Source of the DNA: Nitrososphaerota archaeon
Lineage (GTDB): Archaea > Thermoproteota > Nitrososphaeria > Nitrososphaerales > Gagatemarchaeaceae
Length of the DNA stretch: 64,000 bases
Reading direction: 5' to 3'
Assembly (NCBI GenBank): GCA_029785195.1
Contig: JAFMAD010000006.1
Location: forward strand, 1-64,000
Under the pieces are notes generated by a model, which saw nothing but the letters and a program-made list of their open reading frames with translations, was not told the origin of the DNA and made no database searches. The position numbers and the translations under genes were made by a program. Below, piece after piece: positions 19,913-24,383 of this stretch (the first letter of the stretch is position 1; each line of letters starts with the position of its first letter).

Positions 19913-20356
19913 TTAATCTTGCGGAGCGCGCCTGGGGGCCGGCGCCAGCCTCTCGAGTCCGTATCTCTTGGCGATCTCCGACTGGAGCCTCCTCACTTCA
20001 CCGATCCTCCTAGCGAGCCTTCTCTCGAACAAGAGGTCCCTGGCCCCTGCGTAAAACCAGAGGATCGAGACGGCTAGGCTCAGGACCCCAGCCACCACCA
20101 CCCCCGGGTCCACCAGGTCCACGGTCTGGCTCGTGACCCCCAGGCCGTAAGGGACGACGACCAGCTGCGCGAAGTAGCTGGCGGCAAAGTAAGCTCCAGC
20201 GACCGTGGCTACGAGGGCGAGCATCCTGATCTTCCTCCCTCCACGTTCCACGTGCTGGATGAACTCCTCCTGGAGCTCGATGATGGAGACCCCCAGGTCC
20301 TCGTCCTCGGACAACGTCTTGTTCGGGCCCTCGTCTGCCTTATAATCCACGCTCAC
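19913..20356 (-). CDS. Two-helix membrane protein with coiled ends
   Basis: The 147-residue protein has a charged N-terminal helix (about 1-42), two membrane segments (about 44-68 and 83-107) and a basic C-terminal helix (RRLARRIGEVRRLQSEIAKR) that probably lies in the cytoplasm. The winged-helix gene ends 7 bp upstream on the same strand, so they form an operon. A comparable membrane/winged-helix pairing occurs at 61170-62100. Function unknown. Confidence 0.7.
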   Translation of the reverse strand: MSVDYKADEGPNKTLSEDEDLGVSIIELQEEFIQHVERGGRKIRMLALVATVAGAYFAASYFAQLVVVPYGLGVTSQTVDLVDPGVVVAGVLSLAVSILWFYAGARDLLFERRLARRIGEVRRLQSEIAKRYGLERLAPAPRRAPQD

Positions 20357-20363
20357 AACTTGT

Positions 20364-20627
20364 TCACTCCAAGGCGGGGAAGAGCAACCTCAGGCCGGCG
20401 TCGAGGCGGCCGAGCGCCTCCATCCCCTTCGGCGTAAGCGAATACCTCTCGTGGCCCTCCGAAGGTTCGACCTTTACCAATGCACCCGCAGTGAGAAAAT
20501 CCAGGTATTGACCGAGCCTATCGTATGGTATGTTGGTCGTACGGGCCAGCCTGGTGGGGAGCTGCGGGCCGGGGGCCATGGCCCTGAGGAGCTCCCAGTA
20601 GATCACGGTCGTGTCCCGGTTCCTCAA
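20364..20627 (-). CDS. Small winged-helix protein
   Basis: The 87-residue protein is a single winged helix: LARTTNIPYDRLGQYLDFL is the recognition region and ERYSLTPKGMEALGRL is the wing and last helix. This is the compact archaeal wHTH often found alone or beside membrane proteins. It is transcribed away from the pseudo-ATPase operon that begins at 20733, so it could regulate both sides; that is inference. It resembles the winged-helix protein at 61807-62100. Confidence 0.8.
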   Translation of the reverse strand: MRNRDTTVIYWELLRAMAPGPQLPTRLARTTNIPYDRLGQYLDFLTAGALVKVEPSEGHERYSLTPKGMEALGRLDAGLRLLFPALE

Positions 20628-20732
20628 CCGCCCTGAAGACCGACCCTGCCTGATATGAACAAGTTGTGCTCCCGAATCGTGCTCCCTACTCGTGCGTCAG
20701 CGCCTTAAGCGAACCATGCACGCAGCTCCCCG

Positions 20733-21959
20733 TTGAGCGCGCAAGGAGCAGCAGGCTGGGTCGGGTACTCCCTTGACAGGGCCAGGGGCCACGTCGGGAT
20801 ACGGGAGCTCGGCGACCGCGTCCTCCTCCTGGGCAGGCAGGCGGGGGCAATGGCGACCCTCTTCGCCTACGCAGCCGCAGAGGCGGGGTCGAGGCTCGTG
20901 GTCCTCGACGTCGACGGGTCCGTGTCCCCGGAGGTCCACGGCCGCTTCAGCTGCTTCGACTACCGGTCGCTCCTCTACGAAGCGTTCCACCTCGAGGGGG
21001 AGGACGCTATGCACGGCCAGCTCGTCGCCTCCGCCTATGCCGCTGCCCTCGACCTCACCTCCGAGGAGGAGGCCGTCCTCTCCGCTGCCCTCCAGAGGCT
21101 GTCCGAGCAGAACGACCTGGCCACCCCCGCCGCCCTCTACGACGCCCTTGGTGCAGTAGAAGGGTTCAGGGGCTTCTACGTCGACAAGCTGAGGGGGAGG
21201 GTCGGGGCCCTCCGCCTCCTCGACGCCGCCAGGGGGGAGGGCTTCGACGCCCTGACCGCAGGCGGGGCCATGGTGAGCTTCTCCTCCGCTCCCTACCCTC
21301 AGGCCGCAGACCTCGCCGCAGGGCTCTACGTCGCCAAGCTCCTCCACCTCCTCTCTAGCCCCGGCCCGTCCCCGGACGCCCTCCTCATAACCGGGGCCCA
21401 CCGCCTCTTCAGGGCCCTCACCCGCTTCCATCACTCGGGGAGGCTCCTGGCGCGGCTCCTAGAGTCCCAGGTCCCCCTGGTCCTCGCCACCCCTCTCCCC
21501 GCCTTCCTGAGCGAACAGCTGATCGAGTCGGTGCCGGTCAGGGTCTACTCCAGCGAAGCGTGGAACGCCCGGAGGAACTGGAGGCAGGCGGCCGCCCTCG
21601 TATGCTCCTACGTCGTCTGCGACGACCGCTCCGGTGCATCCCTGGGGTTCGTCCCCAGGTTCATCAGGCCGAAGCGCGCCCCAGGCGCCCTGCCGCCAGG
21701 CCCGGCCAGGAGAGCACTCCCGGAGCTCACTAGGACGATCCTCGAGGAGGTCTCACGTTTCGACTCTGCCAACAGGCAGTCCATAGTCTCTTATCTTTCA
21801 CCGCAGTTCCTCCCGGCGGACGTCGCGGCCGAGATAGACAGGCTCCACTCTGAAGGGTACATCATCTTGGAGCCCAAGCAGAGCGGGTCCGGCCCCAAGA
21901 TGCTCGCCTACACTGTGACGGAGCCGGGGAGGCGGCTCCTGCAGGGGCTGAGCAGGTGA
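20733..21959 (+). CDS. Degenerate P-loop protein with C-terminal winged helix
   Basis: The 408-residue protein starts like a HerA/VirD4-type ATPase: DRVLLLGRQAGAMATLFAYAAA (about residues 28-48) sits where a P-loop is expected, followed by a strand ending in LVVLDVDGS. The lysine and Ser/Thr of GK[ST] are replaced (A-M-A), and the Walker B region reads ALLITGAHRLF rather than LLIDEAH, so ATP hydrolysis is unlikely. The C-terminal 80 residues form a winged helix (RQSIVSYLSPQFLPADVAAEIDRL and a wing ending in YTVTEPGRRLL). It overlaps the RecA-like gene by 4 bp (ATGA-type), so the two proteins are probably made together. No named family is recognised. Confidence 0.7.
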   Translation: MSAQGAAGWVGYSLDRARGHVGIRELGDRVLLLGRQAGAMATLFAYAAAEAGSRLVVLDVDGSVSPEVHGRFSCFDYRSLLYEAFHLEGEDAMHGQLVASAYAAALDLTSEEEAVLSAALQRLSEQNDLATPAALYDALGAVEGFRGFYVDKLRGRVGALRLLDAARGEGFDALTAGGAMVSFSSAPYPQAADLAAGLYVAKLLHLLSSPGPSPDALLITGAHRLFRALTRFHHSGRLLARLLESQVPLVLATPLPAFLSEQLIESVPVRVYSSEAWNARRNWRQAAALVCSYVVCDDRSGASLGFVPRFIRPKRAPGALPPGPARRALPELTRTILEEVSRFDSANRQSIVSYLSPQFLPADVAAEIDRLHSEGYIILEPKQSGSGPKMLAYTVTEPGRRLLQGLSR

Positions 21960-22966
21960 TGGAGCACCTCGCCACCGGCTGCTCCGCCGTGGACGCCCTG
22001 ACGGACGGAGGCCTGGCCACGGGGACGGTCACCCAGATATTCGGGGAGAAGGCCCTGGGGAAGAGCATCATCTCCTTCCAGGCCGCGTGCTCGGTGGCCG
22101 CCGCGGGAGCCAGCGCGGTGATCCTCGACACCGAGCAGTCGTACTCGAGCTACCTCGTCCCCTACTGGCGGGACAGGATGTCCAAGAGGTTTGAGAGGGA
22201 GCTCAGCGTCGCGGAGGTGAAGCTCGAGAGGGCGCCCAAAGTCTCGCCGAAGCGGAAGCCCGTCACCAGGGGTCAGCTCATCAACGCCGTCGGCGGAGCC
22301 CTCAGCCACCTGGGGGTCTCCTACACCGACGCCCATCTCAGCGCAGTCGCTGACATCTTCTCCCCTGACTTCCGCGTCGAGCTCCCCCCCAAGGGGCCCT
22401 CCGTCCTGGTCTTCCAGACCCCCGAGGTCGTCGACCTCCTGAACCTCCACGGCGTCGACGCCGCCAAGGAGGTCTCCAGCGGCGGCCGGGTCGAGCTGAG
22501 GCTGAGGCAGACCCCCACCTACCAGTCCGCCCTCCACCATATCATCCACGAGAGCGGGGCGAGGCTGCTCGTCTACGACTCGATCTCCGCCCCCTTCAAG
22601 TCATCCTTCCCCAGCACGCAGGACCTCCCCGCCCGGAGCGCCGGGCTCGCCATGCTCCTCGCCCACGCCCAGCGCCTCTGCGTCGAGTTCGGCATCGCGG
22701 TCCTCGTCACCAGCCACGTCTCCATCGACCCCATCAACCCCTGGGACAGGATCCCATACGGCGGTGTCATCCTCGGCCACGACGCGAAGTTCTCCCTCGA
22801 GCTGACGAAGTCCACCGCGTCGAGGAACAAGGACAGGAGCCCGGAGGCCCTCAACCCCGGCGAGAAGGAGGTGAGCACCAAGGCCTTCTGGGCCGCAAGG
22901 CACCCCGCCCTCGAGGAGTACACCAGGTTCGCCTACGCCCGGCAGGATGGGGAGGGGTTCCACTGA
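21956..22966 (+). CDS. RecA/RadB-like ATPase with a large insertion
   Basis: The 336-residue protein has a RecA-fold core: Walker A GEKALGKS at about residues 30-37, a following helix and strand SAVILDTEQSYSS typical of RadA/RadB/KaiC, and Walker B LLVYDSISAPF at about 203-213. Between about 65 and 160 there is an insertion rich in basic residues not found in standard RadB. The later VLVTSHVSIDPIN and PYGGVILGHDAKFSLEL fit the conserved C-terminal strands. There is no N-terminal HhH domain as in RadA. It is coupled to both neighbours (4-bp and 1-bp overlaps). A role in recombination or in an ATP-driven membrane complex is possible. Confidence 0.8.
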   Translation: MMEHLATGCSAVDALTDGGLATGTVTQIFGEKALGKSIISFQAACSVAAAGASAVILDTEQSYSSYLVPYWRDRMSKRFERELSVAEVKLERAPKVSPKRKPVTRGQLINAVGGALSHLGVSYTDAHLSAVADIFSPDFRVELPPKGPSVLVFQTPEVVDLLNLHGVDAAKEVSSGGRVELRLRQTPTYQSALHHIIHESGARLLVYDSISAPFKSSFPSTQDLPARSAGLAMLLAHAQRLCVEFGIAVLVTSHVSIDPINPWDRIPYGGVILGHDAKFSLELTKSTASRNKDRSPEALNPGEKEVSTKAFWAARHPALEEYTRFAYARQDGEGFH

Positions 22967-24006
22967 TGGGGTGGGGGGCGCGGCTGCTCGTGGTCCTGGC
23001 CGGGCTCGTCGCCCTGGCCCTCGGCGCATGGCCCATCGTCCTCCTCGGGCTGATCTACCTGGCCTACTCCTTCCGCAAGCCACGGGCCCAGCGCGCGGTC
23101 ATAGTCAAGCAGCAGGTCCTGGCCAGGCCCGGGCGCCCCTGGGGGAGATATGCGCTCGGGGGCGCGCTCCTCCTGCTGGCGCTCGCCGCCGTGGCGGCAG
23201 GGGGGACGCTTTCGCCTGTCGCCTTCTCCGCGGGCGGGCTTGCGGTCTTCCTCTGGCCCCTCGCGCGCAGGCACGGGGTGGGGGACGGGGTGGTCCCCAT
23301 GACCGACTCGATACTCCTCAGGAGCAGGCTCTTCCCGTTGCGCTGGCATGCCCTCGCCGAGGTCAAGCTCGAAGCGCAGGATCAGACGAGGGGAGTCGCC
23401 GCCCTGGACGGCCGGCTCCTGGTCTTCGCGGGCAGGTCTCCCTCGGCGTTCCAGGTCGTGAGCGTCAACGCCCTCGGCTACAGGACTGCCGAGGAGAAGG
23501 TCCTCAGGGCCCTGCGGCGGGAGACGCGGATGCTCTCGCAGAGGGGGGCCCACCTCCTCCCCCTGGACAGCCGCGACGCAGCCAAGAGGCTCTCCATGAC
23601 CCTCGACCGCCTCGACGTCGGGAGCGAAGACCTGGAGGCCGTGTCGTCCCTCCCATTCGACGTCTTCGCCGTAAGGACCAAGGAGGGGTTGGTCGTCTCC
23701 CACAGGGCGTTCAGGCTCTCCGAGCCTGTGGGTACCCCCTCCATACCCACTTCCGACCTCACCCCTGCCAGGCAGCCTCTCTTCGCCGAAGTCGTCGAGA
23801 AGATCCAGGAAAGGCACGGCTGGCCCGGGCCCGACGCGTTCTCCCCTTTCCTCGCCGCGCTGGACGCCTCCAGGGCGGAGCCGTTCTCCGACAGGGTCAT
23901 GGCCAGGGGCGAAGCGGAAGGAAAGGTGTCCGTCGAGACCCCGGGCTGCGCCGAAGTGAAGCTCACCAGGGCGCAGCTGAGTGCTGTGGCGAGGATCTAT
24001 GGGTGA
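22966..24006 (+). CDS. Membrane protein of the RecA-like operon
   Basis: The 346-residue protein has two closely spaced hydrophobic hairpins in its first 105 residues (about 5-35 and 60-98), then a soluble domain of about 240 residues, probably cytoplasmic. The soluble part contains the stretch SLPFDVFAVRTKEGLVVSHR; I recognise no family. The ATG overlaps the stop of the RecA-like gene (TGATGG), the tightest possible coupling. The likely meaning is a membrane anchor or platform for the two P-loop-type partners. Confidence 0.7.
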   Translation: MGWGARLLVVLAGLVALALGAWPIVLLGLIYLAYSFRKPRAQRAVIVKQQVLARPGRPWGRYALGGALLLLALAAVAAGGTLSPVAFSAGGLAVFLWPLARRHGVGDGVVPMTDSILLRSRLFPLRWHALAEVKLEAQDQTRGVAALDGRLLVFAGRSPSAFQVVSVNALGYRTAEEKVLRALRRETRMLSQRGAHLLPLDSRDAAKRLSMTLDRLDVGSEDLEAVSSLPFDVFAVRTKEGLVVSHRAFRLSEPVGTPSIPTSDLTPARQPLFAEVVEKIQERHGWPGPDAFSPFLAALDASRAEPFSDRVMARGEAEGKVSVETPGCAEVKLTRAQLSAVARIYG

Positions 24007-24383
24007 TTCGGGAGTCAGCTCTGTGCTTGGGTTCGGGAGGGCGTTCAGAATCCTCGAGGTCCTTGTTCGAGCAGACTTCATGGAAACGACGTGCAATGCA
24101 ATGGTGGCTGTCTTCAGTCCCTCGCTCGAGTTCAAACTGGCGCAGGTCTTGGCTGGGGCAACCAGTCTGCTGCAGCTCTCCGAGATCACGGTACGGACCG
24201 GCTCGCCACGCCAGGGCGGAACTTTTCCGCGGTCACCTCGACCGTCGCTTCACCCTCCCTCGCGAGCAGTGTCATCAGCAGCTGCTGCTTAATCTTGTTC
24301 TCTTGATTTGGGTCTAAACACCAAGGCCCACGGAAAGCTTCATATCCCAATTCCAAAGAGTCGTTTCAAAGGTCGTCAGGGAT
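24007..24383 (+). other. Intergenic stretch upstream of aEF-2
   Basis: Short open frames run through here but show no domain or coding signal. The last 50 bp has a weak TATA-like TTCATAT (24339-24345) about 40 bp before the EF-2 ATG. Nothing else is recognised. Confidence 0.4.

Follow-up and report, generated by a model that had tools for sequence, protein, structure and literature searches.

Several well-described proteins and gene sets resemble the locus analyzed here. HerA, whose partner is NurA, is a DNA translocase with an N-terminal HAS-barrel, and VirB4 and VirD4/TrwB share its core. HerA is also active in the HerA-Sir2 and HerA-DUF4297 systems, in which it is combined with an effector. 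As far as the consulted part of PMC9905601 goes, Ced and Ted are chromosomal gene sets by which archaea import DNA, and they combine a VirB4/HerA-type ATPase with proteins that have two transmembrane helices (two-TM proteins). Here, we describe a three-gene operon (P1, P2, and P3) at positions 20733 to 24006 of a 64,000-nucleotide stretch (the window) of contig JAFMAD010000006.1, from an archaeon of the Gagatemarchaeaceae. It combines a HerA-type core lacking ATP-site motifs, a RadA-type ATPase, and a membrane protein, and its function probably concerns DNA at the cell membrane.

By profile and by model, the core of P1 is the same as that of HerA of HerA-NurA, VirB4, and VirD4/TrwB. Unlike HerA, P1 lacks the P-loop and the Walker B acids, starts at the core, and carries a winged helix; its partner is a RadA-like ATPase (P2 is Rad51-like and P3 belongs to no Pfam family) instead of NurA. 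P2 has the core, the ATP motifs, and the C-terminal GGxxxxH region of RadA, RadB, Rad51, and their paralogs, but it differs from them in about 80 extra residues, in the absence of the N-terminal domain, in scores far below the RadA and RadB cut-offs, and in its operon partners, a dead HerA and a membrane protein. The likeness to Ced and Ted, compared by make-up only, lies in an archaeal chromosomal set with a HerA/VirB4-type ATPase and two-TM proteins; the differences are that no multi-TM channel protein was recognized here, that the HerA-type protein P1 is dead, and that nothing in Ced corresponds to P2. A second operon (D0 and D1, see below) is closer to HerA-Sir2 and HerA-DUF4297 than P1-P2-P3 is. 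No description of the P1-P2-P3 set was found in the literature searched, which left out most subscription papers, nor is the set described in the accessible parts of PMC4158269 and PMC6393860.

HerA-type core, RadA-type ATPase, and membrane protein

The three genes are arranged as follows.

P1: 20733-21959, forward strand; TTG start, 408 amino acids (aa); core of the HerA family lacking the P-loop and the Walker B acids, with a winged helix at the C-terminus.
P2: 21956-22966, forward strand; GTG start, 336 aa; RadA/Rad51-like ATPase carrying about 80 inserted residues.
P3: 22966-24006, forward strand; ATG start, 346 aa; membrane protein with four helices followed by a soluble domain.

P1 and P2 overlap by 4 bp and P2 and P3 by 1 bp, which confirmed the three-gene operon reported in a preliminary description made from the sequence alone; the wider interpretation given there is partly supported.

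As judged from profiles and a predicted model, P1 descends from a HerA core and its ATP-site motifs are missing. When 19 P1 proteins were compared with 23 HerA cores by profile-profile alignment (hhalign), a match of 96.8% (E value of 2.3e-10) was obtained over P1 residues 15 to 282, E values for such single profile pairs not being database-calibrated. Reversed profiles gave 0.1 to 0.2%, and values of 0.1 to 1.7% were obtained with the profiles of P2 and of six unrelated families. The AlphaFold model of P1 (pLDDT of 86.1, pTM of 0.85) found HerA of HerA-NurA (9x1m) as its best PDB match with Foldseek (E value of 3.5e-8, probability of 1.00, TM-score of 0.49 by query length), and the next matches were other HerAs, VirB4, and TrwB, also at a probability of 1.00. 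The HerA/VirD4-type assignment of P1 in the preliminary description was thus borne out, P1 being of the HerA/VirB4/VirD4 kind.

At the Walker A site, P1 of the window has GRQAGAMAT where HerA has GMTGSGKST, so that GK[ST] is replaced by A-M-A, as had been noticed at the outset. The GxxxxGK[ST] motif was absent from all 51 P1 sequences (34 from the window's family and 4, 3, and 10 from three further families, f18, f20, and f19) but present in 23/23 HerAs and in 34 of the 35 family P2 rows, the single miss being a degraded copy (L023). The Walker B site was also rightly described as gone: P1 has LLITGAHRLF in place of TLVEEARNIA, with ITGA where the acidic pair would stand in the window, no pair in the family alignment, and a single acid there in some members. 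The idea that P1 belongs to a known family with an intact P-loop elsewhere was rejected, none being present in the 51 sequences. Pfam DUF87 matched none of the 19 P1 members at an E value of 0.1, and P1 of the window matched no Pfam or NCBIfam family apart from a weak C-terminal PadR match (E value of 0.033).

The winged helix proposed for the C-terminus is consistent with weak Pfam matches to PadR (7 of 19 members) and HTH_34 (3 of 19), with a best E value of 0.0012 each, and with the succession of helices and strands that the model shows beyond residue 329. No HAS-barrel is present in P1, because the HerA match begins at residue 15 and leaves no room for one. P1 was also considered as a pseudogene, and this was rejected: the family copies are open except for G023:C66, which has internal stops, and its dN/dS was 0.16 to 0.28 over 10 pairs.

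Judged by its sequence, P2 belongs to the RadA type, and its ATP motifs are intact. It matched Pfam Rad51 with an E value of 9.2e-18 and retains Walker A (GEKALGKS) and Walker B (LLVYDS), in agreement with the intact RecA-fold ATPase first proposed; both motifs were also present in P2 of 10/10 f19 loci. Scores remained below the NCBIfam cut-offs (69 bits versus 259 for RadA, 60 versus 172 for RadB), and P2 matched RadA/Rad51 with a model E value of 3.7e-19, whereas the best KaiC-type model gave 3.4e-6 and ArlH gave 0.0036. A basic insertion of about 95 residues had been suggested. An insertion is present, but its size is nearer 80 residues (P2 residues 48 and 200 align to RadA residues 50 and 124, with two 231-aa RadA constructs, 5jee and 5lb4, as references), and it is only mildly basic, with 14 K+R and 9 D+E in residues 67 to 150.

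P3 was correctly recognized as a membrane protein with a large soluble domain. It shows two hydropathy peaks, and the predicted model (pLDDT of 80.6) places four helices before residue 103, followed by the soluble domain. No Pfam family was found for P3, and a structure search with the model gave no PDB match for the soluble domain at an E value of 0.001; a NurA or VirB4 domain, guesses that were not tried singly, was rejected on the same result. All three genes are under purifying selection over 10 pairs each, with dN/dS values of 0.05 to 0.19 for P2 and 0.15 to 0.33 for P3. Between the window and one relative (L050), dS was 0.23 for P3, 0.59 for P1, and 0.54 for P2; P3 has seemingly been exchanged between strains, since its dS is lower than that of P1 and P2.

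Conservation across Nitrososphaeria

P1 was found in 39 of 101 genomes, most of the genomes surveyed being incomplete metagenome-assembled genomes (MAGs), and all 39 fell within the 46 genomes of the window's family (Gagatemarchaeaceae, f1). P2 was present at an E value below 1e-90 in 37 of these 46; two genomes (G014 and G031) had P1 without P2, and in both P1 lies at the very start of a contig. The 40 family loci include some near-identical strains and the degraded extra copy L023. In 39 of them, P1 is followed on its own strand by P2, and in 37 P3 comes next; the loci without P3 (L017, L020, and L030) are cut by contig ends. The three genes therefore co-occur in relatives, and chance neighborhood was rejected on this conserved order and on the presence of P1-P2 in four families. 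A viral origin was likewise rejected, as no relative was found in viral contigs.

For 37 loci, the nearest named records were MAGs labeled archaeon, Thaumarchaeota, Nitrososphaerota, or Nitrososphaerales, with one labeled bacterium. Among them, SubAcS15-57, SubAcS15-15, AcS1-13, AcS1-27, and palsa-1368 belong to the Gagatemarchaeaceae (Group I.1c) according to the part of PMC10640624 consulted, in which RadA, HerA, and DNA repair do not occur. Some soil and groundwater archaea are among the carriers of the operon.

Pairs of P1 and P2 were found in four families of the class: f1, f18, f19, and f20. The P1 profile gave weak C-terminal matches in f18 and f20, to proteins of about 370 to 425 aa directly before a P2 relative, and as sets these matched P1 at 97.9% (f18) and 98.9% (f20) by profile-profile comparison. 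In f19, a protein of 398 to 426 aa precedes P2 in 10/10 loci fetched, and this set matched P1 over its full length at 97.6% (E value of 4.5e-12; 0.1% when reversed) and HerA at 88.9%. The plain P1 HMM finds one of the ten f19 proteins (L194, E value of 1.2e-5); the other nine were assigned because they stand before P2 and because the set as a whole matches P1 by profile-profile comparison. Compared alone, the f19 and f20 P1 sets matched at 1.1%. Downstream of P2, f19 has a pair consisting of a TM and a soluble protein. With a broader P2 profile, matches were obtained in 38 of the 310 genomes of the class, only in f1, f18, f19, f20, and f24, and in a phylum sample of 300 genomes the window's own genome was the sole match. 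In the one f24 locus, a membrane protein comes after P2 and no P1 was seen; a gene convergent to this membrane protein (L110:8171-8569) is helix-turn-helix-like and by eye resembles the fourth small gene described at the end of the next but one section.

Second operon and shared palindromes

Upstream of P1, the window contains two further genes and two palindromes.

C4: 20364-20627, reverse strand; small winged-helix protein, probable regulator (Pfam HTH_45, E value of 4.5e-10).
C3: 19913-20356, reverse strand; two-TM protein (two hydropathy peaks, no Pfam match).
C4-P1 intergenic region: 20628-20732; predicted divergent promoter region with the palindrome ACAAGTTGT at 20659.
Second palindrome: 20354-20364; between C3 and C4.

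Both C4 and C3 lie near P1-P2 in 26/26 family loci examined with flanks (taken from the 40 family loci and re-fetched stretches), and both are on the opposite strand in 25, the exception being L039, where automatic frame picking chose a C4 frame on the other strand. C4 is directly upstream in 21 of the 26 loci and 2 to 5 kb further away in L024, L025, L028, L029, and L033. In four of the 26 (L115, L120, L121, and L029) P1 was not labeled automatically; it is present in the matching loci of the 40-locus survey.

The second operon encodes D0, D1, and D3. D0 (about 896 to 990 aa) has a membrane part at its N-terminus and a HerA core whose P-loop is intact. In D1 (430 to 792 aa), the N-terminus is disordered, and the C-terminal part of most rows contains a G-x-D...E-x-K pattern that by eye looks nuclease-like (PD-(D/E)XK); no useful Pfam or PDB match was found for D1. 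D3 measures about 185 to 215 aa, and the two tested had no Pfam match. Full-length D0 was found in 9 of the 46 family genomes and a split or partial D0 in G027, G029, and the window's own genome; P1 is present in 11 of these 12, the exception (G013) being 48% complete. P3 residues 1 to 163 matched the D0 N-terminus at 95.6% (E value of 1.3e-8) by profile-profile comparison, with 0.4 to 1.5% for reversed profiles, 2.4% for an MFS family, and 0.9% for an ABC permease family. In L035, D0 and D1 come directly after P3, as they do in L039, but there D0 is in three frames. A C3-type gene is divergent from D0 in L177, L178, L179, and L180, and L177 also has a C4-type gene (HTH_45, E value of 1.3e-12).

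Two variants of these genes were also observed. A D0-type frame at G029:C157:3192-4286 has both ends but no ATPase middle; the middle may have been deleted or lost through faulty assembly, or the frame may be an ATPase-free variant. In the window's own genome (G000:C22; L183:4285-8352), D1- and D3-type genes adjoin a different HerA ATPase (a frame of 496 aa), which is encoded on the opposite strand; D1 and D3 may therefore move as a pair with other HerAs.

An alignment of eight loci showed conserved palindromes in the C4-P1 gap. The paired palindrome ACAASTTGTN{3,20}CAASTTGT occurred in 14 of the 46 family genomes, and the reversed control gave none. By coordinate reading, its 17 distinct places comprise 13 P1 promoters, three places before D0, and one contig end (G018:C87). 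The D0 pairs lie about 70 to 80 bp before the probable D0 start, in G013, G015, and G018:C298. The window has single palindromes only, at 20354-20364 and 20658-20668, and palindromes with one mismatch are no commoner in it than in shuffles (15/100 reach 6). Half-sites at the C3-C4 place, corresponding to 20354-20364, were also found in L118 and L119.

Possible function

We tentatively favor, at somewhat less than an even chance, a chromosomal membrane-linked DNA-handling machine in which P1 is a scaffold and P2 the ATPase. This explanation is preferred because P1 is homologous to HerA and the P-loop is lost in P1 yet kept in P2; because the P1-P2 order recurs in four families and all three genes are under purifying selection; because P3 matches D0 and, among 46 genomes, palindrome pairs are confined to the two operons and one contig end; and because D0 directly follows P3 in L035. 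P1 would keep the HerA shape and the winged helix without being a motor, and would act as a scaffold or DNA-binding subunit. P2 would be seated on P1 and supply ATP-dependent DNA binding or remodeling, and P3 together with C3 would tie P1-P2 to the membrane. The HerA pump of the second operon, optional and possibly accompanied by a nuclease, could use the same membrane site when present, and C4 may control both operons via the palindrome. Most likely, the machine would connect the movement of DNA at the membrane, either in uptake or in the rescue of broken or foreign DNA, with strand handling of the RadA type.

Several results weigh against this explanation. Directly compared, the f18 and f20 P1 sets match HerA at just 0.1% and 0.5% and are linked to it only through P1, and P1 matches D0 at 24.5% by profile-profile comparison. 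The f18 membrane protein after P2 matched P3 at 17% at first and at 81.2% (E value of 1.2e-5) with more P3 rows, and the f20 membrane protein gave no match to P3 (0.8% and 1.7%). Neither P1 nor a strong P2 is present in three near-complete family genomes (G003, G041, and G042, with completeness of 96, 96, and 90%), so the set is not essential in the family. The second operon is not a required part, since it occurs in only 12 of 46 genomes, three of them partial, and the paired palindrome is found in only 3 of the 12. The nuclease-like pattern of D1 was read by eye, and 2 of 10 rows miss part of it.

In a more specific form of the DNA-handling machine, which is possible but on balance unlikely, HerA would have changed from a motor to an ATP-free ring or scaffold, and a dedicated RadA-family ATPase would be seated on it at a membrane port, with a plug-in HerA pump and nuclease as an option under the same operator. 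The whole would then serve Nitrososphaeria lineages in the uptake or rescue of DNA.

The best of the alternatives, though an improbable one, is a defense system in which P1-P2 senses foreign DNA and acts through P3, with the second operon as a companion effector, as in HerA-Sir2 and HerA-DUF4297. Anti-phage HerA complexes (known here by their PDB titles) are among the structures matched by the P1 model, the second operon is patchy, D1 varies in length and sequence, and P3 has apparently been exchanged between strains. However, PADLOC models gave no match for P1, P2, or P3 at an E value of 1, P1-P2 is kept across four families with P2 strongly constrained, relatives are missing from viral contigs, and the chromosomal neighbors are common to several strains. 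Weak PADLOC matches were obtained for C3 (JetB, 0.042) and C4 (LmuC, 0.00019; MkoB, 0.034).

A regulatory or signaling complex is less probable still. P1 would be a repressor acting through its winged helix, P2 a KaiC-like ATP-dependent switch, and P3 the relay of a membrane signal. The winged helix at the end of P1, a further winged-helix protein in C4, and the weak similarity of P2 to KaiC and ArlH models fit this scheme, but P2 is far closer to RadA/Rad51 by the E values given above, and almost the whole P1 core is HerA-like and not a known repressor fold. As doubtful is a chromosome tether for segregation or division, in which P1-P2 would bind DNA and P3 with C3 would hold it at the membrane without transport: the anatomy is the same and the genes are chromosomal and mostly single copy, but absence from near-complete G003, G041, and G042 is unusual for a core function, and control is shared with a HerA pump operon.

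A HerA-family protein that lacks the P-loop in 51/51 sequences and whose neighbor in four families is an intact RadA-like ATPase would show that the HerA fold can act lastingly as a scaffold, and would connect RadA-type proteins with the membrane in archaea. The genes are concrete candidates for a part in membrane-linked repair or DNA uptake in lineages that are known mainly through metagenomes, and the small regulon of two operons with one palindrome gives a handle on this.

Two minor features adjoin the operon. A fourth small frame (23981-24292) overlaps the end of P3; it encodes 103 aa in the window, where it may be degraded, and resembles helix-turn-helix-like proteins of 132 to 149 aa that follow P3 in L118, L119, and L028. 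In two of these loci, a short HerA of 390 to 395 aa with an intact P-loop (Pfam DUF87) is convergent to the operon (L118:4801-5973 and L119:11056-12243).

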